Source: Streptomyces coeruleorubidus (GTDB lineage Bacteria > Actinomycetota > Actinomycetes > Streptomycetales > Streptomycetaceae). Taken from it: a stretch of DNA of 64,000 bases. Below are positions 8,101 to 20,136 of this stretch, in pieces. The notes under the pieces were generated by a model. It had not been told where the DNA came from, ran no database searches, and was given only the letters and a program-made list of their open reading frames with translations. How positions within the stretch are numbered: position 1 is the stretch's first letter; the number at the start of each line of letters is the position of its first letter. The stretch lies in the NCBI RefSeq assembly GCF_028885415.1, contig NZ_CP118527.1, positions 6,076,001 through 6,140,000 on the forward strand, in the 5' to 3' direction. Both the position numbers and the translations under genes were made by a program.

Positions 8101-8820
8101 CTACGGTCGCAAGCCGGCGGCGATCTCCCGCAGTGCGCGGGCGGCCTGCCGCTGGAGTCCCGGCCCGAAGGTGATCCGGGTGGCCCCTCGCGCGCCGAGT
8201 TCGGCGGGCGAGGGGCCGTGGCCCGGGACGGCCACGACGTTGATCGGCCCCTGGATCCCGGCCCGCAGCAGCGGCAGCACCTCCGGCGGGGCCTTGATCG
8301 GATAGACACAGTCGGCGCCCGCAGCTACGTACAACGCGGCCCGCTCGATGGCCCGTTCTGGGTCGGTGACCCCGCGGGCGAAGGTGTCCACGCGCGCGTT
8401 GACGAAGAGCCGGCTACCGGCCGCGGCCCGTACCTCGGCCAGCCAGTCGGCATGCTCGTGCGGGTCCCTGAGGACGCCGTCGACGGAGTCCTCCAGGTTG
8501 CAGCCCACCGCCCCCGTCTCCAGCAGCCGCTCCACGAGTTCCTTCGGCGCGAGCCCGTACCCGCCCTCCACGTCCGCCGACACCGGTATGTCGACGGCCC
8601 GGACGATCCGGGCGACCGCCGCGAACATCTCGTCGGCCGGGACCTGCCCGTCCTCGTAGCCGAGGCAGGCGGCGACCCCGGCACTGGGCGTGGCGAGCGC
8701 CGGGAAACCGGCCTCGGCGAACACCCGGGCACTGGCCGCGTCCCAGGGGCCGGGCAGCACCAGGGGATCGCCGGGCGCCCGGTGCTGGTGCAGAGCGCGG
8801 AACACCGCGGCCTTGCTCAT
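8101..8820 (-). CDS. Isocitrate lyase/PEP mutase family protein
   Basis: A 239-residue TIM-barrel protein of the PEP mutase/isocitrate lyase superfamily. It begins with the usual LVLPGPWDAASARVFAEAGF segment and contains the metal-binding DVEGGYG loop. Members cleave or rearrange C-C or C-P bonds of small 2-hydroxy or 2-oxo acids; the specific substrate is not deducible here. It is the last gene of a three-gene minus-strand operon, and its ATG at 8820 overlaps the stop of the AhpD-like gene by four bases. The KKCGH catalytic loop of true isocitrate lyase was not found, so glyoxylate-cycle function is unlikely. Confidence 0.85.
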   Translation of the reverse strand: MSKAAVFRALHQHRAPGDPLVLPGPWDAASARVFAEAGFPALATPSAGVAACLGYEDGQVPADEMFAAVARIVRAVDIPVSADVEGGYGLAPKELVERLLETGAVGCNLEDSVDGVLRDPHEHADWLAEVRAAAGSRLFVNARVDTFARGVTDPERAIERAALYVAAGADCVYPIKAPPEVLPLLRAGIQGPINVVAVPGHGPSPAELGARGATRITFGPGLQRQAARALREIAAGLRP

Positions 8821-9263
8821 GGCGTGTAACCCCCCGGCGGAATCCGGCGGCTGACCATCACCCGGTTCCAGTTGTTGATGGCGACGATCAGGCCGATCAG
8901 ATGGGCGAGCCGGGCCTCGTCGAAGTGCTTGGCGGCCCGCTCGTACACCTCGTCCGGCACGAACCCGTCCGTCAGCAGGGTCACCGCCTCCGTCAGCGCC
9001 AGCGCGGCCCGCTCCCGCTCGTCGAAGACGTCCTCGGCCTCCTCCCAGGCCGCCAGCAGGTCGAGCTGCTTCTCGCTCACCCCGTACTCGCGGGCGATCG
9101 CGAGGTGCATGTCCAGGCAGAACGCGCAGTGGTTGAGCTGCGAGGCGCGGATCACCACGAGTTCGGCCAGGGCCGGGTCGCCGAGGCCCTTCTTCGCCGT
9201 GGCGCTCAGAGCCGACATGGCCCGGGCGACCGCCGGGTCGAGCACCCGCGTCCGAGCCGTCAC
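8817..9263 (-). CDS. Carboxymuconolactone decarboxylase/AhpD-like protein (2nd of operon)
   Basis: A 148-residue small helical protein with the AhpD-type redox motif CAFCLDMH (Cys-x-x-Cys-x-x-x-His) and an upstream glutamate. This is the arrangement used by alkylhydroperoxidase-like CMD proteins to reduce peroxides through a disulfide. The GTG start at 9263 overlaps the stop of the upstream paralogue (GTGA), and its own end overlaps the PEP-mutase-like gene, so all three are translationally coupled. It ends in a basic and glycine-rich tail (RRIPPGGYTP) like its neighbour. Detoxification of an organic peroxide is a family-based guess. Confidence 0.87.
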   Translation of the reverse strand: MTARTRVLDPAVARAMSALSATAKKGLGDPALAELVVIRASQLNHCAFCLDMHLAIAREYGVSEKQLDLLAAWEEAEDVFDERERAALALTEAVTLLTDGFVPDEVYERAAKHFDEARLAHLIGLIVAINNWNRVMVSRRIPPGGYTP

Positions 9264-9769
9264 TTGTACTGGCCCGGCTGGTAGTGCCCCGGCGCCATAC
9301 GGCAGGTCACCCCGAACCGGTTCCAGGCGTTGATCGCCGTGATCGCGGCGATCAGCTGCGCCAGCTCGGCCTCCTCGAAGTGCCTGGCTGCGTTCTCGTA
9401 CACCTCGTCCGGCACGAACCCGTCCGTCAGGACCGTCACGGCCTCCGTCAGCTCCAGGGCCGCGAGCTCCTTCGCGGTGTAGAAGTGCCGCGACTCGTCC
9501 CAGGCGCTGAGCTGCACGATCCGCTCGAGGCTCTCGCCCGTCGCGAGGGCGTCCTTGGTGTGCATGTCGATGCAGAAGGCGCAGTGGTTGATCTGGGAGG
9601 CGCGGATCTTCACCAGCTCGTACAGCCTGTGGTCGAGGCCCTGCCGGGCGGCCATCTCCAGCCGGACCATCGCCTTGTAGACCTCGGGCGCGTGCTTGGC
9701 CCACTCCAGGCGGGCGGGCTGCTCGGGGGCGTACTCCACGGTCGTCGTGTCAGGGGTGTGCGTCGTCAT
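9260..9769 (-). CDS. Carboxymuconolactone decarboxylase/AhpD-like protein (1st of operon)
   Basis: A 169-residue paralogue of the next gene with the same CAFCIDMH redox motif. It has an extra N-terminal 35 residues (PEQPARLEWAKHAPEVYKAM). The ATG at 9769 lies 7 bases after a TAGGGT box (9782-9777), which suggests a leaderless transcript. The start is only 47 bases from the divergent MocR gene, which makes MocR its likely regulator. A third homologue lies on the other side of that regulator. Confidence 0.88.
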   Translation of the reverse strand: MTTHTPDTTTVEYAPEQPARLEWAKHAPEVYKAMVRLEMAARQGLDHRLYELVKIRASQINHCAFCIDMHTKDALATGESLERIVQLSAWDESRHFYTAKELAALELTEAVTVLTDGFVPDEVYENAARHFEEAELAQLIAAITAINAWNRFGVTCRMAPGHYQPGQYK

Positions 9770-9816: not shown

Positions 9817-11205
9817 ATGGCGGAACAGTGGGCCACTTTGGGCATCGACCTGCACCTGGAGCCGACCGGCCCGGGCCTGCGCCGCGGGCTGACCGACGCC
9901 CTGCGCGAGGCGGTGCGCTCCGGCCGGCTGGCCTCCGGCACCCGGCTGCCCTCCTCCCGCGCGCTCGCCGCCGACCTGGGCATCGCCCGCAACACGGTCG
10001 CCGACGCCTACACCGACCTGGTCGCCGAGGGTTGGCTCACCGCCCGGCAGGGCTCGGGGACCAGGGTCGCCGACCGGAGGGTCGTCCCGCCGGCCGGCAC
10101 GGCGCCCCACCCCCGCGAACGCACCCGCCCCGCCTACGACCTGCGCCCCGGCAGCCCGGACCTGGCCTCCTTCCCGCGCGCGCAGTGGCTCAAGGCCGCC
10201 CGCCGCGCCCTGACCGCCGCGCCCCACCACGCCCTCGACTACGGCGACCCCCGCGGCCGCCCCGAGCTGCGCGCCGCGCTCGCCGGCTACCTCTCCCGGG
10301 TCCGGGGCGTACGCGCCGACCCCGAACGGATCGTGATCTGCGCCGGGTCGGCGCACGGCCTGAAGCTGCTCGGCACGGCCCTGCGGGCGCGCGGGGCACG
10401 GACGGTCGCCGTCGAGTCGTACGGGCTCGATGTGCACTTCAGGCTCCTGGCCGCGTCCGGTCTGCACACGGTCCCGCTGCCCTTCGACCGGCTGGGCACC
10501 GACCCCGGCGCGTTGTCCGCCGCCGACGCGGTCCTCCTCACGCCCGCCCACCAGTTCCCCATGGGCGTCCCCCTGCACCGCGACCGCCGAGCGGCCGTCG
10601 TGGACTGGGCGCGCCGCACCGGCGGGCTGGTCCTGGAGGACGACTACGACGGCGAGTTCCGCTACGACCGTCAGCCCGTGGGCGCGCTCCAGGGCCTGGA
10701 CCCCGACCGGGTGGTCTACCTGGGCACCGCGAGCAAGTCCCTGGCCCCCGGACTGCGGCTGGCCTGGATGGTGCTCCCGCCGGACCTCGCGAAGGAGACC
10801 GCGGCGGCCAAGGGCGGGGTCGACACCTGCGGGGTGCTGGACCAGCTGACCCTGGCCGAGTTCCTCACGTCCGGGGCCTACGACCGCCATGTCCGCGCGA
10901 GTCGCCTGCGCTACCGGCGCCGCCGGGACGCCCTGGTCGCCGCCGTCGCGGCCCGGGCCTGCCGAGCCCGGGTCACCGGCATCGCGGCCGGCCTGCACGT
11001 CCTGCTGCGGCTGCCGCCCGGCACCGAGCGGTCGGTGCTCCAGGCGGCCCACTGGCAGGGCCTGGCGGTCCACGGACTGACCCGCTACCGGCACGCCGCC
11101 TCGGTCGTGGAGCCGGCCGACGCCCTGGTCGTCGGCTACGGGACACCGCCGGACCACGCGTGGTCGGGGGCGCTGGACGCGCTGTGCGCGGTACTGCCCG
11201 GATAA
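9817..11205 (+). CDS. MocR/PdxR-type transcription regulator with aminotransferase domain
   Basis: A 462-residue GntR/MocR regulator. The N-terminal winged helix-turn-helix (about 15-85, with LPSSRALAADLGIARNTVADAY) is followed by a fold-type I aminotransferase-like domain. The PLP-lysine motif is GTASKSLAPGLRLAW and the DDYDGEFRY segment is also present. Such proteins sense PLP or an amino compound and control divergent genes. Here the divergent operon is the AhpD-like/PEP-mutase-like set, and another AhpD-like gene follows 48 bases downstream. No pdxST genes are nearby, so PLP-synthesis control is not indicated. Confidence 0.9.
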   Translation: MAEQWATLGIDLHLEPTGPGLRRGLTDALREAVRSGRLASGTRLPSSRALAADLGIARNTVADAYTDLVAEGWLTARQGSGTRVADRRVVPPAGTAPHPRERTRPAYDLRPGSPDLASFPRAQWLKAARRALTAAPHHALDYGDPRGRPELRAALAGYLSRVRGVRADPERIVICAGSAHGLKLLGTALRARGARTVAVESYGLDVHFRLLAASGLHTVPLPFDRLGTDPGALSAADAVLLTPAHQFPMGVPLHRDRRAAVVDWARRTGGLVLEDDYDGEFRYDRQPVGALQGLDPDRVVYLGTASKSLAPGLRLAWMVLPPDLAKETAAAKGGVDTCGVLDQLTLAEFLTSGAYDRHVRASRLRYRRRRDALVAAVAARACRARVTGIAAGLHVLLRLPPGTERSVLQAAHWQGLAVHGLTRYRHAASVVEPADALVVGYGTPPDHAWSGALDALCAVLPG

Positions 11206-11253
11206 TCGCGCGAATTTCCCTCCGGAATGCCGTGCAACGGATATGGTCACCCC

Positions 11254-11721
11254 ATGAGTGAAAGCACTTCCCTATCCCGCGTGGCCCTGAAGAAAACAAC
11301 CCCCGACGTCTCCGCCGCGATGGGCTCCCTGCACAGCGCCGCCGTTTCCGCGGCCCAGGACGCCGAACTCGAACCGGAACTGCTGGAACTGGTCAGGATT
11401 CGCGCCTCGCAGATCAACGGCTGCGCGTTCTGCATCGACATGCACACCAGGGACGCCCGCGCCCAGGGCGAGACCGAGCAACGCGTCTATGCGCTGAACG
11501 CCTGGCGGGAGACGCCGTTCTTCACCGAACGCGAGCGCGCGGCACTGGCGTTGACCGAGGCGGTGACGCTCGTCCACGACGGTCGCGTCCCGGACGCGGT
11601 GTACGCCGAGGCGGCCGAGGTGTTCGACGAGAAACAGATCGCGGCGCTCATCTGGTCGGCCACCGTCATCAACGCGTACAACCGGATCGCGATAGCGACG
11701 CGTATGGCGCCGAAAAGCTGA
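11254..11721 (+). CDS. Carboxymuconolactone decarboxylase/AhpD-like protein (3rd paralogue)
   Basis: A 155-residue AhpD-like protein with the same CAFCIDMH motif and the FTEREFAAL-type segment (here FTERERAALALTEAVT) shared by all three copies in this locus. I chose the ATG at 11254; an upstream in-frame ATG at 11227 falls in AT-richer non-coding sequence. It follows mocR by 48 bases in the same direction and ends at a palindromic terminator shared with the convergent cluster. Confidence 0.88.
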   Translation: MSESTSLSRVALKKTTPDVSAAMGSLHSAAVSAAQDAELEPELLELVRIRASQINGCAFCIDMHTRDARAQGETEQRVYALNAWRETPFFTERERAALALTEAVTLVHDGRVPDAVYAEAAEVFDEKQIAALIWSATVINAYNRIAIATRMAPKS

Positions 11722-11751
11722 ATCAAATACGGAAGAAGGCAGCGTAAAGCG

Positions 11752-11775
11752 CGCCGGGTCGAATTCGACCCGGCG
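11752..11775. terminator. Bidirectional terminator, perfect 24-bp palindrome
   Basis: A perfect self-complementary stretch (left arm CGCCGGGTCGAA, right arm its reverse complement) flanked by AAAG on the left and TTTCC on the right. It sits between two convergent genes and can stop transcription both ways. Confidence 0.85.
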
Positions 11776-11791
11776 TTTCCATTTCCTCGAT

Positions 11792-12592
11792 TCAGTCGGC
11801 CGGCAGCGGCTCCATCATGCTGTCCAGCCAATTCCGCCATTCCCCGGCCCGTTCCGCCGGAGGCACCCGCATCGACCGCCCGATCCAGGCCGTGACGGGC
11901 CGGATCCCGTGCAGCGCGTTCGTCAGCCACACCTCACGGCCGTCCAGCTCGGCCACGGTCCGCTCCCGGTGCGCGATCCGGATCCCGGACCGCAGCGCCC
12001 GCTCCTGGACCAGCCCGGCCGTCACACCCGGCAGGACGGGCAACCGGGGTGGCGGCAGGCACAGGGTGTCGTCCTCCCACCACAGCACGCTGGCGGTGGC
12101 CGACTCCAGCACCGTGCCCGAGGGCGCGATCAGCACCGCCTCCTCCGCGCCCTCGCCGTGGGCCCGGCGGCGCACCCGGGCCAGGGTGTCCAGGTCCGGG
12201 CCCTTGCGGCGGGGTACGGTCCGTGGATCGGACTGGCCCGCCGCCCACAGGCGCACCCCCGTGCCGAGCGGCGGAGCGGGCCGCAGCAGCAGCCGCAACT
12301 CCAGGGAGCCCGCCGCGAGTTCCACCCGCGGGAACCACTCGCCCGTGCGCGGCAGCAAGGCGGTCACGTCCTGCCAGAACGCGTCGAGCCGGCGCCGCTC
12401 CGGTCCGCCGCAGTCCCCGCAGGCCCGCGCGAACCGCTCCCGGTGCCGGGCAGGGGCCCGCACCCGGCCCTCGCGCACCAGCCACGAGTCCGCGGCGAGC
12501 AGCCGCCCCCCGGCCGCCTGGTCCGGGGCCGGGGCCAGGCCACGGCCGGGCGTCCACGTCCACAGGCCTTCCGCCACCGCCGGTCTGGTCAC
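11792..12592 (-). CDS. Class IV aminotransferase, probable 4-amino-4-deoxychorismate lyase
   Basis: A 266-residue fold-type IV PLP enzyme. Lys130 (RRKGPDLDTLARVR) aligns with the PLP lysine of PabC/branched-chain aminotransferases, and the following EEAVLIAPSGTVLESATASV segment is typical. In a cluster with aminodeoxychorismate synthase, the expected reaction is elimination of pyruvate from 4-amino-4-deoxychorismate to give 4-aminobenzoate. GTG at 12592 is preceded by GGAGG six bases upstream. It is the last gene of the operon, 11 bases after the monooxygenase stop. A true aminotransferase role is the main alternative. Confidence 0.85.
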   Translation of the reverse strand: MTRPAVAEGLWTWTPGRGLAPAPDQAAGGRLLAADSWLVREGRVRAPARHRERFARACGDCGGPERRRLDAFWQDVTALLPRTGEWFPRVELAAGSLELRLLLRPAPPLGTGVRLWAAGQSDPRTVPRRKGPDLDTLARVRRRAHGEGAEEAVLIAPSGTVLESATASVLWWEDDTLCLPPPRLPVLPGVTAGLVQERALRSGIRIAHRERTVAELDGREVWLTNALHGIRPVTAWIGRSMRVPPAERAGEWRNWLDSMMEPLPAD

Positions 12593-12603
12593 CAACAGCC
12601 TCC

Positions 12604-13782
12604 TCAGTACTTGCGTCCCGCGACGGCCGGTGCCCCGTGCCGGGGTCCGTACGGCGCGTGCTCCAACCACGACCCGCACCACGGCAGCACCGGCGCCAGT
12701 GCCGCCGCGGCCCGCTGCCTGACGCGGACGGTCCGGCGGCGCGGCCGCAGATGGTCCAGGGCGGCACCGGCGGCGGCACTGTTGAACAGGGCCGCCGCCC
12801 GCCGCACGTCGGCGAACCCGGCGACCGCCTCGCCGGTCCCCGCGGCGATCGCCTCGGCGGCGGCCGCCGCGTCCGCGATCCCGCTGTTCATCCCGCGCGC
12901 CCCGAACGGCGGAAACAGATGCGCCGCCTCGCCTGCCAGCAGCACCCGCCGGTGCGGATCGGTGAACGAGGCCGCCACCTTACGCAGGAAGCGGTACGTC
13001 GACACCCACAGGATCCGCTCGCCGTAGCCGTCCCCGACGACCGAGGGCAGCCAGCGCCGTACGGCCTCCTCGGTGCCGAACTCCTCCTGCCGGTCGTCGT
13101 CCCGGCACTGGAGGTCGACCTGGAAGCCCCCGGTGAACGGCACCCGCATCACACTGCGCCCGCCCACCCCGGGATGCTCGTAGTGGAAGACCCGCTCCAG
13201 CGGCAGCTCGGCGCCCGGCACGTCGGCGACGTCCACGACGACGTGGAAGCCCTCGCCGTGCGTGCCCTCCAGGGCGATGCCCAGCTCGCGCCGGACCGTG
13301 GAGCGGGCCCCGTCGGCGGCGATCGCGAACGCGCCGGTCCACACCCGCCCGTCCTCACCCGTCAGCCGGACCTCCGTACCGGTGGTGCGCACGCCCGTCA
13401 CGCGCGCGCCCCACACGAACTCCACCCCGGCCTCCGCACAGGCCGCCCGCAGGAACCGTTCGGTGTCCGTCTGGCGCAGGCTGGTGAAGGGCGGCGGGCC
13501 GGACGGGGGCGGGAAGGTGCGGGAGTAGACCTCACGTCCCCGGTAGAGGGTGCGCCTGGTGTGCCAGGTCCGCCCGTACGAGGTGATCTCGGCGGCGAGG
13601 CCGGGCCGCATCGCGTCCAGCAGGCCGAGGGTCTCCCGGTGCACGAACAGGGCCCGGCTGCCCGGCCGTTCACGGTCCTTGGGCTCCGCCTCCAGGAGGA
13701 CGGCCGGCAGGCCGTGCGCCCGCAGCGCGAGCGCAGCCGACAGGCCTACGGGACCGGCGCCCACGACCATGACCGGGGTCAT
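12604..13782 (-). CDS. FAD-dependent aromatic monooxygenase (class A)
   Basis: A 392-residue PHBH/MhpA-fold flavoprotein. It shows the N-terminal dinucleotide motif VVGAGPVGLSAALAL, the DG motif AADGARSTVRR, and the second FAD motif LLAGEAAHLFPPFGARGMN. That last motif has Glu where nearly all relatives have Asp (GD to GE). The expected reaction is NAD(P)H- and O2-dependent hydroxylation of an aromatic acid, perhaps 4-aminobenzoate or its CoA thioester. Its ATG overlaps the upstream ligase stop by four bases, so it is translationally coupled in the PabAB operon. Oxidative decarboxylation to an aminophenol is an alternative. Confidence 0.85.
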   Translation of the reverse strand: MTPVMVVGAGPVGLSAALALRAHGLPAVLLEAEPKDRERPGSRALFVHRETLGLLDAMRPGLAAEITSYGRTWHTRRTLYRGREVYSRTFPPPSGPPPFTSLRQTDTERFLRAACAEAGVEFVWGARVTGVRTTGTEVRLTGEDGRVWTGAFAIAADGARSTVRRELGIALEGTHGEGFHVVVDVADVPGAELPLERVFHYEHPGVGGRSVMRVPFTGGFQVDLQCRDDDRQEEFGTEEAVRRWLPSVVGDGYGERILWVSTYRFLRKVAASFTDPHRRVLLAGEAAHLFPPFGARGMNSGIADAAAAAEAIAAGTGEAVAGFADVRRAAALFNSAAAGAALDHLRPRRRTVRVRQRAAAALAPVLPWCGSWLEHAPYGPRHGAPAVAGRKY

Positions 13783-15338
13783 GCCCGGACGCCTTCGGTG
13801 AGCATCCGGGCGATCTCCACCCGCTTCACCTTCCATGTCGCGGTCATCGGCAGGTCCTCGAACCGCCACTGCCGCGGCTCGGCCATTGCCGGCAGCCCCG
13901 CCGTGGCCCGCCGCCAGCGCTCCGGGTCCAGGGGCCGCTCGCCGCGTACGCACACCACCGGTACCGGCTCGCGGTCCGCGCCCGGCACGATGACGACCTC
14001 GCGCAGCTCCTCCAGCCGGGACATCAGCGTGTCCTCGACCTCCAGATTGCTGTGCACGGCGTCGATCTGGTCGACTTCCCGGTCGATCAGGTACAGGGCG
14101 CCCAGACGGCTCCGGTAGCCCATGTCGCCCATCTCCCACCAGCCGTCGGTGAGCTGACGGTCGTAGCGCTCCGGCATGCCGAGGTAGGTGAGGATCCGGC
14201 CCCGGGTGCGGGCCTCGATCCGGCCCCGGGTGCCGGGCGGGACCCGCCCGCCCCCGGCGTCGGTGACCCGGACCCGGGTGAAGCCCGGTATGCCGAACCC
14301 GACCCGGCGGCCGTCCGCGCGGGCCGCGCTGCGCCGGGTCACCACCTGGAACGCCACCGGACCCGTCTCGCTCTGCCCGTACAGCTGGACCAGCCAGGGC
14401 GTGCGGCGCCGTGAGGCGCCCAGCAGCCGCCGTACGGTGCGCGGATGGATCGCGTCGAACGTGGAGCCGTACGCCCGCACCCGGGACAGCGGGGCACCGG
14501 GCGCGTCGGCCAGCTCCTCCCACAGCACGAACGTGTTGGGGTGCGTCTCCACGATGCCGGGCCGGTGCCGGACCAGCAGCGGGCCCACCGCCGCCGGATC
14601 CGGGTCGGTGATCAGCACCAGCGGGCTGCCGAAGTGCAGCAGGACGCCGAGCAGATGGTAGAAGCGCGAGTGCACGAACGACATGTGCAGCGCCGCCGGC
14701 TCGCCCCGCGTGGGCCAGCCCAGCGCCTGCTGCGGCACCAGCCGGTTCCACATGGTGTGCGCGCAGTGCACGGCCAGTTTGGGGACGCCGGTGGTGCCCG
14801 AACTGTGCGTGATCAGGGCGGGTTCGCGCGGATGCAGCCGGACCGGCGGGGGCGGCTCGGCGCCGGCGTACTTCGCCAGGGACTCCGCCCCGGCCGTGTC
14901 GTCCACGCAGAGCGTCCGCCGCACGAGCCCGGACAGGGGCAGCTCCCGCAGGCCGTCCAGGGTGGCGCTGTCGGTGACCAGCCAGGGCCGGCGCAGCCGT
15001 TCGAGCAGCTGCCCGGCCACGGCGGGGGCCAGCGCGGGCGACAGCAGCACCGGCACGGCGCCGATACGCGCGACGGCGCAGGTCAGCAGCATGATGTCGA
15101 CGTTGTCCGCCTTGTGCACGACGACCTGCTCCGAGGGCCGCACCCCGGCGTCCCACAGTCGGCCGGACAGGTCCTCGACCAGGTCGGCCAGCACGGTGTA
15201 GCTCAGGTCGACCCCGAGGGAGGGGGCCACGTCCAGCGGCCGGTCCAGGGTGACGAAGACGGCACCGTGCCGGTCGGCCGCACGCCGGAAGACCGGTCCC
15301 AGATAGAAGCCGCGGTCGGCGAGCAGAGACTGTCGCAT
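13779..15338 (-). CDS. AMP-forming acyl-CoA/acid ligase (second ligase of cluster)
   Basis: A 519-residue ANL-superfamily adenylate-forming enzyme. Motifs are A3-like ITHSSGTTGVPKLAVH, A5 LYGQSETGP, A7 WWEMGDMGYRS, and a degenerate A10 (MTATWKVKRVEI) that keeps the catalytic lysine. It activates a carboxylic acid as acyl-AMP and probably passes it to CoA or an amine. It is clearly different from the neighbouring benzoate-CoA-ligase-like enzyme, so the cluster probably activates two acids. ATG at 15338 follows GGAAAGGA. A GTG at 15365 overlapping the upstream stop is an alternative start adding nine residues. Confidence 0.85.
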   Translation of the reverse strand: MRQSLLADRGFYLGPVFRRAADRHGAVFVTLDRPLDVAPSLGVDLSYTVLADLVEDLSGRLWDAGVRPSEQVVVHKADNVDIMLLTCAVARIGAVPVLLSPALAPAVAGQLLERLRRPWLVTDSATLDGLRELPLSGLVRRTLCVDDTAGAESLAKYAGAEPPPPVRLHPREPALITHSSGTTGVPKLAVHCAHTMWNRLVPQQALGWPTRGEPAALHMSFVHSRFYHLLGVLLHFGSPLVLITDPDPAAVGPLLVRHRPGIVETHPNTFVLWEELADAPGAPLSRVRAYGSTFDAIHPRTVRRLLGASRRRTPWLVQLYGQSETGPVAFQVVTRRSAARADGRRVGFGIPGFTRVRVTDAGGGRVPPGTRGRIEARTRGRILTYLGMPERYDRQLTDGWWEMGDMGYRSRLGALYLIDREVDQIDAVHSNLEVEDTLMSRLEELREVVIVPGADREPVPVVCVRGERPLDPERWRRATAGLPAMAEPRQWRFEDLPMTATWKVKRVEIARMLTEGVRA

Positions 15339-15361
15339 GGGGTGGTTCCTTTCCGAGAGGT

Positions 15362-16885
15362 TCACCAGGCGCCCCGGCGCACCAGATGGCGGCGGAGCTT
15401 CCCGGTCGCCGTGCGCGGCAGCGACGGGACGAAGCTGACGCCGCGGGGGACCTTGAACGCGGCGAGGCTCTCCCGCGCCAGGCCGATGAGCTCGTCCGCC
15501 AGGCCGTCCCGCACCGGCGACGCGGGGACCACGAAGGCCCGCAGCCGGCTCGCGCCCCGCCCGTCGGGCACGGCCGCGACGGCCACCTCCCGCACCCCCG
15601 GATGGCCGCGCAGCACGGCCTCCACCTCCAGCGGGGAGACGGTGATGCCGCCGACCATCTCCATGTCGTCGGCCCGGCCCAGATGCCGGTAGGAACCGTC
15701 CGGTTCGCGGCACGCCCGGTCGCGGGTGGCCAGCCAGCCGCCGGCCAGGGCCCGGGCGGTCTCCTCGGGCCGGTTCAGATAGCCGGGCGTCACCGTCGGC
15801 CCGCGCACCCACATCTCGCCCTCCTCGCCGTCCGGCACCGGGTGGCCGTCACGGTCCCGCAGCTCCACCTCGAAGCCGGGCACGGGACGGCCGACCGTGC
15901 CCGGGTGGTTGTGGGCGAAACCGTTGGCGCAGAACGCGTGGCCGGCCTCCGTGGAGCCGATCTGCTCCAGCACGGGCGCGCCGAGCAACGCGGTCACCTG
16001 CCGTGCGAGCCCCTCCGGCAGCCCCTCGCCGGCCGACACCGCGGCCCGCACCGAGGCGAAGCAGCCCTCGTGCCCGTGGCCCCGCTCGGCGACCAGCGCG
16101 GCGTACGCGGACGGCACGGAGTACAGCAGCGTCACCCGGTGCCGGGCGACGAGTTCGTCGATGGTCGCCGGGGTGGGACGCCGGTCCACCAGCACCGCGG
16201 ACGAGCCGGAGAAGAGCGGGAAGACGAAGGCGTTGCCGAAGCCGTAGGCGAAGAACAGCTTCGACACCGACAGGGTGACGTCCTCCGCCGTGATCCGCAG
16301 CACCCGCCGGCCGACGAGGTCGTGGTACGTCCGTGGATCGCCGTGCGTGTGCACGACGCCCTTGGGGCGGCCCGTGGTGCCGGAGGTGTACTGGACGTAG
16401 AGCGGGGTGTGCGCGTCGACCTGGTGGGCGGGCGCGGGCGAGGCGGCGGGGGCGAGCGCCATGAGCTGGTCGGCACCCAGGCGGGCCCGGCCGGCGAACC
16501 GCTCCTCCAGGCCCGGCCCCGTCACACAGAGCACGGCCCCGGTGTCCTCGGCCAGGAACGCGTGGTCGGCCGCGGGGAGTTCGGGGTTGACCAGGACCGC
16601 GACGGCGCCGAGACGGGCGGTGGCGAGGAACGCCGTCACCCAGGCGAGGGAGTCGGGCAGCGCCAGCAGCACACGGTCCCCGGGGCGCACGCCCTGCCCG
16701 GCGAGCACGGTGGCGGCCCGGGCCGCGAGGCCGTGCACCTCGCCGTGGGTCCAGGCCCGGTGCCCCTGGTGGAAGGCGGTCCGCCCGCCCCACCCACGCC
16801 GCTCGGCGAGCTCCGCGAGCTGGGCCGCGAGGTTCCCGGGCGCCTCGGCCTCGGCGGGGTGCAGCACGGCCTGCGGACTGGTCAT
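15362..16885 (-). CDS. Benzoate-CoA ligase family protein, possible 4-aminobenzoate-CoA ligase
   Basis: A 507-residue ANL enzyme with A3 VQYTSGTTGRPKGVVHTHG, A5 EQIGSTEAGHAF and A10 LPRTATGKLRRHL. The segment SVSKLFFAYGFGNAFVFPLF is characteristic of the benzoate-CoA ligase branch rather than of fatty-acid ligases. Beside PabAB and an ADC lyase, the natural guess is ATP-dependent conversion of 4-aminobenzoate to its CoA thioester; substrate identity is inference. The ATG at 16885 overlaps the PabAB stop (ATGA). The stop is itself overlapped by an alternative start of the next ligase. Confidence 0.87.
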   Translation of the reverse strand: MTSPQAVLHPAEAEAPGNLAAQLAELAERRGWGGRTAFHQGHRAWTHGEVHGLAARAATVLAGQGVRPGDRVLLALPDSLAWVTAFLATARLGAVAVLVNPELPAADHAFLAEDTGAVLCVTGPGLEERFAGRARLGADQLMALAPAASPAPAHQVDAHTPLYVQYTSGTTGRPKGVVHTHGDPRTYHDLVGRRVLRITAEDVTLSVSKLFFAYGFGNAFVFPLFSGSSAVLVDRRPTPATIDELVARHRVTLLYSVPSAYAALVAERGHGHEGCFASVRAAVSAGEGLPEGLARQVTALLGAPVLEQIGSTEAGHAFCANGFAHNHPGTVGRPVPGFEVELRDRDGHPVPDGEEGEMWVRGPTVTPGYLNRPEETARALAGGWLATRDRACREPDGSYRHLGRADDMEMVGGITVSPLEVEAVLRGHPGVREVAVAAVPDGRGASRLRAFVVPASPVRDGLADELIGLARESLAAFKVPRGVSFVPSLPRTATGKLRRHLVRRGAW

Positions 16886-19491
16886 CGCCGCGCCTCCTCG
16901 GCCGCCCCGGCCCGGTCCCCCGGCGGGGCCTGCCGCCGGATCCGGTCGGCCGTGTGCTGGTGCAGGGCCCGCATCGGGGCCGCCGTCTTCAGCAGCATCT
17001 CCTCGTACTCCGCGTCCGGATCGGAGCCGAGGACGATCGCTCCGCCCGCCCCCAGGTGCATCTGGCCGTCGGCGAACACCGCGGTACGGATGACGATGCT
17101 GAGATCCGCACCGCCGCCGCACCCGAAGTAACCGAGGGCGCCGGAGTACACGCCCCGCGCCTCGGACTCCAGCGAGTCGATGATCTCCAGCGTGCGCAGC
17201 TTCGGCGCGCCGGTCATCGACCCGCCGGGAAAACAGGCCCGGACACAGTCCACCGCGTCCGTGTCCGCCCGCAGCCTGCCCTCCACGGTCGACACGAGCT
17301 GGTGCACGGTGGCGTACGTCTCCGTGGCCATGAGCTTGGAGACCCGCACCGACCCCGTCCGGCACACCCGCCCCAGGTCGTTGCGGAGCAGATCGACGAT
17401 CATCAGGTTCTCGGCCCGCGTCTTGTCGTCCGACGCCAGCGCGTCCCGCAGCCGGGCGTCCTCCTCCGGCCCGTCGCCCCTGGGCGCGGTCCCCTTGATG
17501 GGCCTGGCCTCGGCGGTGCCGTCCCGCCCGATCCGCAGGAACCGCTCGGGCGAGGACCCGGCCACCTCCAGCTCCCCGAACCTCAGGAACGCCGCGTACG
17601 GGGCCGGGTTGTCGCGCCGCAGCGTCCGGTAGAACTCGAACGCGTCGGTCGGTGCGGGTAACCGAGCGGCGTTGGTCAGGCAGATCTCGTAACTGGTGCC
17701 CGCCCGCAACTCCCGCTTGCACGCCTCGATGTCCGCGAGATACGTCGCCCGGTCGCGCACCAGCCACGGCTCGGCGGCGCCGGGGTCCGCCGGACCCGTC
17801 GGCACGGGCAGGGGCGGCCGCTCCGTCGCCACGCAGGTGAGGTCGGCCAGCGCGCTCTGAAGCCAGTCGGCGGCCTCCCGCGCCGCCTGCGGGGTGTCCT
17901 CCGCCAGGCAGACGGCGTACGTGAAGCCCTCCTGGTGGTCCACCGCGATCACCCGGTCGGCGAACAGCCAGGCGGCGTCCGGGACCGGGGAGCGGTGACG
18001 GTTGGGCGACCCGCAGTCCGCCTTCACCTCATAGCCGAAGTAGCCGACGTAGCCCCCGGTGAAGTCGAACGGCAGCCCGGTCGCGTCCACCCGGCGGCTG
18101 GTCAACTGCCGCTTGAGATAGTCGAAGACACTGGCCGCGACCTTCCGCACCGGCCGCCCCGCCCGCTCGATCTCGCAACGCCCGCTGCCGACGTCGTACC
18201 GCACGAACTCCGCGAGCGGACCCCTGTCGTCCCCGAAGAACGAAAACCGCGACCGCCCCGGCTCCACCAGCGAACTGTCCAGCCAGAACGCCCGCGAGGA
18301 CCCCGCGTACATCCGCGCAAAGGCAGCCTCGGCATCCACCGCCCCGACGATCCGCCGACTGTGCAGCCGGTACCCGACGCGCTCGGGGCGACGGGGGCGG
18401 GGGATGGTGGCGGTGGGCGGGGAGACCGCGTCGGATCGGGTGCGGGTGATGGGCAGGTCGGCCTCGGCGAGCGGCTTGTGCCCTGCGGGCGGCGCGGCCT
18501 GGCCGGGCATGTCGGCGTCGGCGGCCGGACCGGCCGGGCCGGACCAACCGGCCCCTGCGGACGGGCCCGCCCCGGGGGACATCCCGTCGTCGGCGGACGG
18601 ACGGGCCCCGGCGGTTGGACCGGCCGCGATCGAGGGCACATCCCCGTCCGACGGCACATCCCCGTCCGACGGCACAACCCCGTCCGACGGCACAACCTCG
18701 CCCGACGGCACAACCTCGCCCGACGACACGGCCCCGCCGGCCCAGGCCGCCCCGCCCGACGGCAGCACCGCTCCCCAGGGCGCGGCCGCGGGCCGACGGT
18801 CCGCTGCCGGTGACCGGGAGACCTCCGCCTCGCACTCCGGTACCACCACGCGGCGCCGGGCCGGTGACTCGTGCGACGGCACCGCCGTGTTCTTCGCCCG
18901 CAGCTTGCCGGCCCGCTTCGCGGTCAGGTTGCGGAAGTTCACGAGCATGCGGTGGCCGAACTCCGTGAGGACGGACTCGGGGTGGAACTGCACGCCCCAC
19001 AGCGGCCGGTTGCGGTGCCGCAGGCCCATCAGGACGCCGTCCTCCGCCCAGGCCGTGGCCTCCAGCATCTCCGGCAGCGGCTCGCGCACGGACAGCGAGT
19101 GGTAGCGGACGGCGGTGAAGTTCTGCGGCAGGCCCTGGAACAGGTCGCGTTCGTCATGCCGGATCGTGGACAGGTGCCCGTGCCGCGGCTCCGGAGCGGG
19201 CCCCACCACCGCGCGCTCCCCGAGCGCGATGCCCTGATGGCCGAGACACACGCCGAGCACGGGAACCGGGGAGGTCGCGACCAGCCTGGCCGCGATGCCG
19301 AAGTCGCGCGCGTGCGCCGGGTGCCCGGGGCCCGGGGAGACCACCAGGTTGTCGAACTCCCTGAGATCCGGAACCCCGTCGACGGCGGCGTCGTTGCGGA
19401 CGACCACCGGCTCCTCGCCGTTGACCTCGGCGATCAGCTGGAACAGGTTGTACGTGTACGAGTCGTAATTGTCGATGAGCAGGGTCTTCAC
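16882..19491 (-). CDS. pabAB: Fused aminodeoxychorismate synthase (PabA-PabB) with long repeat linker
   Basis: An 869-residue fusion. Residues 1-190 are a glutamine amidotransferase with triad Cys82 (GVCLGHQ), His170 and Glu172 (FHPES). Residues about 373-850 are a chorismate-binding PabB domain. Its motif RPIKGT has Lys666, the lysine that marks aminodeoxychorismate synthases; anthranilate synthases have Ala there. It converts chorismate and glutamine to 4-amino-4-deoxychorismate. Between the domains lies an unusual low-complexity Pro/Ala/Ser/Gly linker of about 180 residues including a hexapeptide tandem repeat. GTG at 19491 has GGGAGG upstream. It heads the coupled run of five genes. Confidence 0.93.
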   Translation of the reverse strand: MKTLLIDNYDSYTYNLFQLIAEVNGEEPVVVRNDAAVDGVPDLREFDNLVVSPGPGHPAHARDFGIAARLVATSPVPVLGVCLGHQGIALGERAVVGPAPEPRHGHLSTIRHDERDLFQGLPQNFTAVRYHSLSVREPLPEMLEATAWAEDGVLMGLRHRNRPLWGVQFHPESVLTEFGHRMLVNFRNLTAKRAGKLRAKNTAVPSHESPARRRVVVPECEAEVSRSPAADRRPAAAPWGAVLPSGGAAWAGGAVSSGEVVPSGEVVPSDGVVPSDGDVPSDGDVPSIAAGPTAGARPSADDGMSPGAGPSAGAGWSGPAGPAADADMPGQAAPPAGHKPLAEADLPITRTRSDAVSPPTATIPRPRRPERVGYRLHSRRIVGAVDAEAAFARMYAGSSRAFWLDSSLVEPGRSRFSFFGDDRGPLAEFVRYDVGSGRCEIERAGRPVRKVAASVFDYLKRQLTSRRVDATGLPFDFTGGYVGYFGYEVKADCGSPNRHRSPVPDAAWLFADRVIAVDHQEGFTYAVCLAEDTPQAAREAADWLQSALADLTCVATERPPLPVPTGPADPGAAEPWLVRDRATYLADIEACKRELRAGTSYEICLTNAARLPAPTDAFEFYRTLRRDNPAPYAAFLRFGELEVAGSSPERFLRIGRDGTAEARPIKGTAPRGDGPEEDARLRDALASDDKTRAENLMIVDLLRNDLGRVCRTGSVRVSKLMATETYATVHQLVSTVEGRLRADTDAVDCVRACFPGGSMTGAPKLRTLEIIDSLESEARGVYSGALGYFGCGGGADLSIVIRTAVFADGQMHLGAGGAIVLGSDPDAEYEEMLLKTAAPMRALHQHTADRIRRQAPPGDRAGAAEEARR
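18635..18724 (-). repeat. Five 18-bp tandem repeats inside the pabAB linker
   Basis: Five in-frame copies of an 18-mer (plus-strand form GGCACATCCCCGTCCGAC with small changes), at 18635, 18653, 18671, 18689 and 18707, with a decayed sixth unit after 18725. On the coding strand they encode the hexapeptide series VPSDGD/VPSDGV/VPSGEV. Unit length is a multiple of three, so copy-number change keeps the frame. Confidence 0.9.
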
Positions 19492-19521
19492 CCGCCCACC
19501 TCCCTCTGTTCGTTCGCGGGC

Positions 19522-20136
19522 CTACGTGGCCCGGCGTTTGTGCCGTCCGCGGAGCGCCTGGAGCGACGGGTACAGCCATTTCCTGAAGAAACGCTGGAGC
19601 CGTGGCATGAGGATCCAGGTGACAAGGGCGGTTACACACAGACACAACAACAGTGTGCGGATCAGTGCATTGAGGTCACCGAGATAGGGAAGCACCGTCA
19701 GATTGAACAGGAGAACCGGCGGAAAAACCGCGCTCATATTCACGAACCACAATTTCCATTTCGACGGCGGAGCCGGCGGCGCCGGTGTCAGGGTCTGCGC
19801 CTCGAACCAGGCCCGGGCGCCCCGTACCCTCCTGCGCTCCGCCTCCCGGGCGAGCCCCTCCAGCCGGGCGTCCCACTGTGCCCGGGAAGGCGATTTCTCC
19901 CAGGCCAGGGCCGAACCCTCGCTGGCGAAGCGATAGACGACATGCCACTCCGCCCCTCCGTCGACAAGTACCCCACCCCCCAAAAAACCCGGTTGCCGAG
20001 CGGTCGCGCCCAGCATGGCCCACCCCCAGGAGTGGAAGTCGGCCGCCCGGCCCGGCATCACCCGATAGGCCACGGTGACCGTGACGGGATTACTGGTCAC
20101 GCCGTCCCATACGGAAAGCGGTTCACGCGCGTTCAA
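19522..20136 (-). CDS. ABM-domain protein with two C-terminal membrane helices
   Basis: 204 residues from a TTG start at 20136; GTG at 20100 is an equally possible start and would give 192. The N-terminal half (PVTVTVAYRVMPGRAADFHSW, later GFLGGGVLVDGGAEWHVVYRF) matches the antibiotic biosynthesis monooxygenase (ABM, dimeric alpha-beta barrel) fold. The C-terminal half has two hydrophobic helices (FPPVLLFNLTVLPYL and LIRTLLLCLCVTALVTWIL) and a basic tail, so it should be membrane-bound. It precedes pabAB by 30 bases on the same strand and is probably the first gene of the cluster. Whether it is catalytic is unknown. Confidence 0.75.
   Translation of the reverse strand: MNAREPLSVWDGVTSNPVTVTVAYRVMPGRAADFHSWGWAMLGATARQPGFLGGGVLVDGGAEWHVVYRFASEGSALAWEKSPSRAQWDARLEGLAREAERRRVRGARAWFEAQTLTPAPPAPPSKWKLWFVNMSAVFPPVLLFNLTVLPYLGDLNALIRTLLLCLCVTALVTWILMPRLQRFFRKWLYPSLQALRGRHKRRAT

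Follow-up and report, generated by a model that had tools for sequence, protein, structure and literature searches.

A conserved Streptomyces operon that probably makes 4-aminobenzoate and converts it to a diazo compound

The DNA analysed here, which we refer to as the window, is a 64,000-nucleotide stretch of Streptomyces coeruleorubidus (bases 6,076,001-6,140,000 of a 9.41 Mb single-contig genome, NZ_CP118527.1), and our subject is an operon of six minus-strand genes at positions 11792-20136 of that window, here named ABM, PabAB, BCL, LIG2, FMO and PLP4 in order of transcription (Table 1). An initial annotation, made from the sequence without database searches, had described six genes on one strand, five of them overlapping or nearly so, and no polyketide synthase (PKS) or nonribosomal peptide synthetase (NRPS). 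All six were recovered, each with a Pfam match; Pfam recognised neither PKS nor NRPS among them, and the measured spacing consists of 4-bp overlaps (PabAB/BCL and LIG2/FMO) and gaps of 11-30 bp. The ABM stop lies 30 bp ahead of PabAB, 23 bp separate BCL from the ATG start of LIG2, and the most likely start of PLP4 is a GTG 11 bp beyond the FMO stop that is preceded by GGAGG. A convergent gene of the CMD/AhpD family, CMD2, is a companion of the cluster that was absent from the initial gene list. A promoter scan found no sites and Rfam gave no match; the stem between CMD2 and PLP4 has 11 pairs, 9 of them G-C, and as the product of a consensus scan is by itself no evidence of function.

Table 1. 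Features of the operon and its immediate surroundings, in positions of the window.
Feature	Position	Strand	Description
ABM	19522..20136	-	Operon gene 1; ABM domain, C-terminal hydrophobic segments read by eye; TTG start as listed
PabAB	16882..19491	-	Fused aminodeoxychorismate synthase: amidotransferase and PIKGT chorismate domain
BCL	15362..16885	-	Benzoate-CoA-ligase-like adenylating enzyme; AMP-binding_C domain, YTSGTTG loop
LIG2	13779..15338	-	CreM/Pzm18-type adenylating enzyme; proposed nitrite-dependent diazotase
FMO	12604..13782	-	Class A flavin monooxygenase; proposed aromatic ring hydroxylase
PLP4	11792..12592	-	Class IV PLP enzyme; proposed aminodeoxychorismate lyase; best start GTG 12592
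Palindromic terminator-like stem	11751..11776	.	Between convergent CMD2 and PLP4 genes; consensus scan
CMD2	11227..11721	+	Carboxymuconolactone decarboxylase/AhpD family; convergent with operon, usually travels along
CMD1	9260-9769	-	Flanking CMD gene, divergent from the MocR/PdxR-type regulator; Pfam match; cluster association weaker
MocR/PdxR-type regulator (PdxR)	9817-11205	+	Flanking; cluster association weaker

That the cluster makes 4-aminobenzoate (PABA), as the initial annotation had proposed, is supported by a PabAB protein that exceeds the pabB equivalog cut-off (TIGR00553, 345.2 vs 328.4) and adjoins a pyridoxal phosphate (PLP) enzyme of the right fold. Both halves of the fusion match Pfam (GATase PF00117, 151.8 bits; Chorismate_bind PF00425, 291.5 bits; PF04715 also matched), and the lysine motif of aminodeoxychorismate (ADC) synthase, PIKGT, is present together with the amidotransferase motifs GVCLGHQ and FHPES, so this part of the description stands. 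PIKGT recurs in 73 of the 79 called proteins of the family, with PVKGT in three and neither form in three. The claim that PLP4 is a class IV PLP lyase divides: the Aminotran_4 fold is there (PF01063, 93.7 bits), and RRKGPDL is found in 71 of 74 called homologs, while the best ADC-lyase equivalog model gives 45.8 against a cut-off of 273, and we propose the lyase activity from fold and context. A second pabB, also with PIKGT, lies next to an Aminotran_4 gene at 1.857 Mb of this genome, so the PABA set of the operon is an additional one. The linker of PabAB contains 18-bp tandem repeats (18631-18729, 5.5 copies, 93%; a weaker set at 18519-18625), which may explain its length of 869 aa, above that of the median called relative.

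The second AMP-forming ligase, LIG2, is indeed an adenylating enzyme by its AMP-binding domain (PF00501, 125.2 bits), its sole Pfam match; AMP-binding_C, which BCL has, is likewise missing in five LIG2 relatives and in two AvaA6-type proteins that gave a match. In a group alignment, LIG2-type and AvaA6-type proteins have in common a histidine at the head of the P-loop (H[ST]SGTTG) where BCL reads YTSGTTG, a DAxH stretch at the site of the BCL sequence GEG(L/M)P, and an A8 region that lacks the GG hinge seen in BCL. LIG2 of the window carries HSSGTTG and FDAIH, and Tri17 shares HSSGTTG and DAxH. The combination of loop histidine and DAxH, a signature defined in this analysis rather than in the literature, occurs in every one of the 159 LIG2-family proteins that fit the loop pattern (164 were called; one of the five others, in locus L206, has NK in place of PK) and in 26 of 30 AvaA6-type proteins, all 30 of which have the histidine. 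Neither feature appears in the 79 of 81 called BCL proteins that fit the pattern, and, with LIG2-family copies and fragments set aside, no other adenylating enzyme has both and one has DAxH alone. The loop histidine by itself is not diagnostic, since it occurs without DAxH in an acyl-CoA synthetase from Listeria that shares 35% identity with LIG2. All 80 LIG2-family sequences considered contain YGQSE, and E324 is invariant in 30 sequences, in keeping with the invariant Mg-binding Glu region of the ANL adenylating fold; E324 would correspond to E352 of CreM, a residue with a described role (PMC11705231, available in part). Records from Listeria and Enterococcus (L251, 6001-7482; plasmid matches H40-H43) hold 'acyl-CoA synthetases' that are 33-35% identical to LIG2 over nearly its full length.

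Among solved structures, the top single-sequence match of LIG2 is Tri17 (8tf7/9bq0, E 4.8e-28), which is believed to activate nitrite by adenylation and couple it to a nitrogen atom (PMC11705231, available in part), and a profile built from 30 sequences places 9xb8 (140 bits) and Tri17 (137) in the lead. An AvaA6-type protein scores high on 8ztz (898), Tri17 (579) and 9xb8 (322), and these three therefore mark the diazotase side of the superfamily. We then reconstructed a maximum-likelihood tree of 54 proteins (33 of the LIG2 family, eight AvaA6-type, three BCL-type and ten other adenylating enzymes), in which the LIG2 family and AvaA6-type proteins split from BCL-type and other adenylating enzymes with branch support of 100/99. 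The LIG2 proteins of PABA-type loci are nested inside the family that we term CreM-like, and they form a nine-row group, again at 100/99, with L167 and with the LIG2 of genome G350, whose locus bears genes of the aspartate-nitrosuccinate (ANS) pathway. We also considered LIG2 as an ortholog of AvaA6 and rejected this, given 71.0 bits on NF058622 against a curated cut-off of 975 and an identity of 25-28%; the AvaA6 model ranks fifth among NCBIfam models for LIG2, at 72 bits.

The most telling support for a diazo function comes from sister clusters: two divergent lineages of the PABA type carry both nitrite-making enzymes. In G350 (L205/L206, which are one cluster), the order PabAB-BCL-LIG2-FMO-PLP4 (60%, 61%, 61%, 60% and 50% identical to the window) is followed 76 bp on by a CreE homolog whose best solved match is 8cp2 (E 3.3e-201), an L-aspartate N-hydroxylase (PMC10404684), and upstream lie a DAHP synthase, an aldehyde-dehydrogenase-family enzyme, a CMD2 homolog (65%), a second FMO and a nitrosuccinate lyase (705.8 bits on model NF052556, cut-off 650). 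Plasmid pADI95-16a of Streptomyces sp. ADI95-16 has the same PABA genes at 48-61% identity, with PIKGT and RRKGPDL kept, and CreE and CMD homologs; its lyase, annotated pcaB, reaches 798.1 bits against the model for nitrosuccinate lyase. That cluster (L248-L250) extends into a fatty acyl-AMP ligase, three desaturases, an ACP, a rubredoxin and a P450. The fetched part of pSMg1-1 from Streptomyces sp. Mg1 (L253) shows the same order, up to a PLP4 end outside that part, with CreE and nitrosuccinate lyase by annotation, and five further plasmid records hold LIG2 at 54.8% identity. These three clusters resemble the window in gene order and in a CMD homolog, and differ from it in adding CreE, nitrosuccinate lyase, DAHP synthase, an aldehyde-dehydrogenase-family reductase and a second FMO.

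A similar association is seen among other relatives of LIG2. From further genomes of the genus we took regions of about 20 kb centred on LIG2 homologs (43-83% identical to LIG2 of the window; a few of the loci overlap), called genes with a GC-frame script and labelled partners by their best BLASTP matches. Of 77 LIG2-family loci, 34 have CreE, 32 a nitrosuccinate lyase gene and 30 both, at a median start distance of 4.6 kb from the LIG2-family gene to the lyase; other partners are SRPBCC proteins (34), quinone reductases (32), PhzE (21), NarK-like transporters (17) and NasC-like molybdopterin enzymes (15). Thirty of the 32 lyases lie at places over the NF052556 cut-off, the one in L136 also exceeds it with 739.8 bits, and the one in L215 is a 268-residue fragment with 288 bits. 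By comparison, only 101 of 392 genomes contain a lyase over that cut-off anywhere. One locus, L148, has counterparts of like type and size to nine genes of the penzonemycin cluster (PhzE, PhzD, dehydrogenase, DAHP synthase, CreD, CreE, quinone reductase, adenylating enzyme and SRPBCC), and its adenylating enzyme is 50% identical to LIG2 of the window; the penzonemycin enzyme Pzm18 is in turn 48% identical to CreM (PMC9323291, available in part). A plasmid of Streptomyces sp. NBC_00388 (L252, NZ_CP107949.1) encodes a CreM-like enzyme (53%) with an anthranilate synthase, a PaaABCD-type epoxidase set, an FAD/NAD(P)-binding protein of CreE size and a nitrosuccinate lyase of 762.6 bits.

The grouping of the operon genes is not due to chance, as the same set recurs in the same order over 80 named loci, kept from 97 relatives confirmed in a scan of species genomes with LIG2. 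In these loci tblastn yielded matches to BCL and LIG2 at all 80 loci, FMO at 79, PabAB at 77, PLP4 and CMD2 at 75 each and ABM at 65, with many of the missing genes falling at loci truncated by contig ends. The outer neighbours thin out (DMT 40, PdxR 38, SHMT 32), so that the conserved unit ends before them. Across the genus, 138 of 392 sampled genomes contain a member of the LIG2 family when matches are taken up to an E value of 1e-60, and 49 of the 392, the genome of the window counted, have a near full-length match of at least 70% identity. ABM is matched at 52-54% identity in L207-L209, with zero match in L168, L205 and L206; CMD2 is matched also in L205, L207, L208, L209, L081 and L087, with zero match in L168 and L083. 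In L168, a reduced variant, just PabAB, LIG2 and PLP4 remain together, which ties LIG2 to PABA in the absence of FMO and BCL, unless those genes have been lost.

BCL matches AMP-binding (267 bits) and AMP-binding_C (PF13193, 69.7 bits), its nearest solved structures are benzoate-CoA ligases (2v7b, E 7.5e-94), and its score on TIGR02262 is just under the benzoate-CoA ligase cut-off (373.0 vs 375.25), in keeping with its initial description as benzoate-CoA-ligase-like. FMO matches FAD_binding_3 (PF01494, 163.3 bits) and has the GxGxxG and DG motifs of the class A flavin monooxygenase it was taken to be; of 79 called homologs, 73 contain GAGPVGL and 77 fit the DG pattern, and the third motif, usually GD.AH in this class, reads GEAAH. 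ABM matches PF03992 (26.4 bits vs a cut-off of 23.1) and has hydrophobic segments at its C-terminus as judged by eye, which agrees with a membrane protein bearing an ABM domain, and CMD2 matches PF02627 (73.6 bits). In engineered Corynebacterium, class A 4-hydroxybenzoate 3-hydroxylases turn PABA into 4-amino-3-hydroxybenzoate (PMC10466732, available in part).

Taken together, these comparisons suggest that LIG2 is most likely a nitrite-dependent, diazo-forming enzyme of the CreM/Pzm18 type, and that the operon encodes a compact secondary-metabolite pathway that makes PABA and diazotises it or a hydroxylated derivative, a reading to which we assign a probability of roughly two in three. PabAB, whose role is well supported, and PLP4, by its fold and context, would lead from chorismate through ADC to PABA. 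FMO would hydroxylate the ring, most simply beside the nitrogen to give 4-amino-3-hydroxybenzoate, and BCL could convert the carboxylate to an adenylate or CoA thioester. LIG2, judging from its family and context, would transfer ATP-activated nitrite to the arylamine, and the resulting N-nitroso compound would collapse to a diazonium or o-quinone diazide, in which an ortho hydroxyl would stabilise the diazo group as it does in cremeomycin. Nitrite would come from outside the operon, through nitrate reduction, and in two sister clusters from an in-cluster ANS pathway. A wider proposal, for which we consider the odds about even, is that some one in eight sampled Streptomyces genomes possess this conserved, uncharacterised route from PABA to a diazo product (e.g., 4-diazo-3-hydroxybenzoate or its CoA ester), with nitrite from general nitrate metabolism, and that annotation hides it as two AMP-ligases.

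Several observations weigh against this interpretation. The window cluster contains neither CreE nor nitrosuccinate lyase and is not an ANS-type cluster; neither gene was matched around the 80 named loci, within at most 10 kb per side and often less, and 41 of the 77 LIG2-family loci are without both. The genome of the window has no nitrosuccinate lyase over the cut-off, the best match being PcaB (TIGR02426, 434.6 vs 355.75), located in a protocatechuate operon next to the dioxygenase genes, and the CreE-like gene of this genome (58% identity; L169/L225, 2973551-2975392) is an orphan with no adjoining lyase. Of the 52 genomes chosen by LIG2 identity, 20 contain a lyase over the cut-off anywhere; a test of genome-wide co-occurrence with PABA-type LIG2 (20/52 vs 81/340, odds ratio 2.0, p 0.04) was set aside as carrying little weight, as it is uncorrected for kinship and at least one such lyase, that of G007, lies 3.4 kb from an AvaA6-type gene. 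The classification of LIG2 also has weak points: its best NCBIfam models are broad or generic (fatty-)acyl-CoA synthetases (118 and 89 bits, far under cut-off), the profile ranks a 4-chlorobenzoate-CoA ligase (100 bits) above the AvaA6-type structure 8ztz (96), and the 25-28% identity to AvaA6-type proteins is no closer than that of BCL. The tree is midpoint-rooted, with long outgroup branches, and CreM, Pzm18 and Tri17 are absent from its rows; no protein named CreM or Pzm18 stands among the best 120 of 1702 homolog matches, where names are abbreviated, and the link from LIG2 to CreM is indirect, running through Pzm18-like loci. To these may be added a report that the CreM homolog CrxM is required to make compounds that have no diazo group (PMC11429834, available in part).

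The absence of ANS genes weighs less than it might, because precedents exist: 72 of 134 ava-type clusters are without them, which the authors would explain by genes located elsewhere, a different route to nitrite or nitrous acid of exogenous origin (PMC10777205, available in part), and for alanosine it has been suggested that nitrite is supplied by nitrate and nitrite reductases (PMC11705231, available in part). The genome of the window also has a penzonemycin-like cluster of the 3-hydroxyanthranilate (3-HAA) type at 3.46-3.49 Mb (L119/L120, one cluster, 3456000-3495000), with PhzE, PhzD, dehydrogenase, DAHP synthase and two CreM-like LIG2 relatives. Between those two relatives, where related clusters have CreD/CreE, lie nitrate-assimilation-like genes, all scoring under their cut-offs (NasC model 730 bits, NirB 258, NarK family 281).

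Other explanations must be weighed against diazotisation. The initial annotation had LIG2 joining a second acid to PABA or hydroxy-PABA as an acyl- or amide-forming ligase, with no diazo chemistry, and the AMP-binding domain, the fatty-acyl-CoA synthetase models at the head of its NCBIfam matches, a cluster without nitrite genes and two ligases side by side would all fit; its motifs, its place in the tree and the ANS genes of sister clusters nevertheless point to nitrite-dependent diazo enzymes, as do the partners of its relatives, and a ligase of that kind sits poorly with the missing AMP-binding_C match and the A8 region without the GG hinge. We regard this proposal as quite unlikely and do not retain it. 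It is unlikely, too, that a diazo group is made only to be lost again, with a PABA-derived benzoate or 3-hydroxybenzoate (or CoA ester) as end product. The pairs AvaA6/AvaA7 and CmaA6/CmaA7 do make avenalumic and p-coumaric acid from aminated precursors in this way (PMC10777205, available in part), and BCL would yield an aroyl-CoA, but Pfam and NCBIfam recognised no dedicated denitrification enzyme in the operon, although no search aimed at AvaA7 was made.

If hydroxylated PABA were instead an o-aminophenol bound for oxidative coupling of the phenoxazinone or quinone type, LIG2 would be CrxM-like and the product would have no N-N bond. Deletion of crxM blocks crexazone 2 and texazone, neither of which has a diazo group, and FMO, ABM and CMD proteins could serve aminophenol or quinone redox chemistry; the same source offers a cryptic diazo step as one possibility (PMC11429834, available in part), and neither Pfam nor NCBIfam picked out a gene resembling phenoxazinone synthase in the operon. 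We give this scheme a small chance. That the genes merely supply PABA for folate, with unrelated neighbours, is exceedingly improbable: PabAB and PLP4 are enzymes of the folate type, but the genome has its separate pair at 1.857 Mb and the operon order is conserved across the genus. A benzoxazole pathway of the caboxamycin or nataxazole type was also considered and rejected, as the acyl carrier protein, ketosynthase III-like protein and amidohydrolase described for it (PMC5481532, available in part) were not recognised in the operon by Pfam or NCBIfam.

Characterised systems place the proposed diazotisation of PABA in context. The penzonemycin (pzm) cluster of Streptomyces sp. SCSIO 40020 likewise combines synthesis of an aminobenzoate from chorismate with an adenylating enzyme, Pzm18, that is reported to be homologous to CreM, but it makes 3-hydroxyanthranilate and includes CreD and CreE, whereas the window would make PABA and has neither gene; the pzm diazo step is itself a proposal (PMC9323291, available in part). 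In cremeomycin (cre) biosynthesis the ANL-family enzyme CreM diazotises an amino-hydroxybenzoate to an o-diazoquinone, as we propose here (PMC11705231, available in part), from another aminobenzoate starter and with CreD/CreE in the cluster. The ava and cma clusters resemble the operon in having two adenylating enzymes, one for an aminobenzoate carboxylate and one diazotase (PMC10777205, available in part), and differ in their 3-amino-4-hydroxybenzoate (3,4-AHBA) starter, their type II PKS and the distinct subfamily to which AvaA6-type enzymes belong. The triacsin enzyme Tri17, the top sequence match of LIG2 among solved structures and one that shares its motifs, converts a hydrazone to an N-hydroxytriazene within an unrelated cluster.

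We found no PABA-based diazo cluster in the open-access literature searched, in which subscription papers and preprints are hardly covered, and none is named in the available part of PMC13061610. If the reading is correct, natural aryl-diazo chemistry would draw on PABA as well as on 3-hydroxyanthranilate and 3,4-AHBA. The nitrite genes CreD and CreE often guide searches for diazo clusters; such searches would miss this operon, as it is without those genes, and the motif signature would provide a means to separate such enzymes from acyl-CoA ligases in annotation.

Three genes of the CMD/AhpD family are clustered beside the MocR/PdxR-type regulator, one at 8817-9245 recognised by eye and CMD1 and CMD2 by Pfam. 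A comparable divergent pair of CMD and MocR genes flanks the genome's own 3-HAA-type cluster (L119) and is found also at L156.

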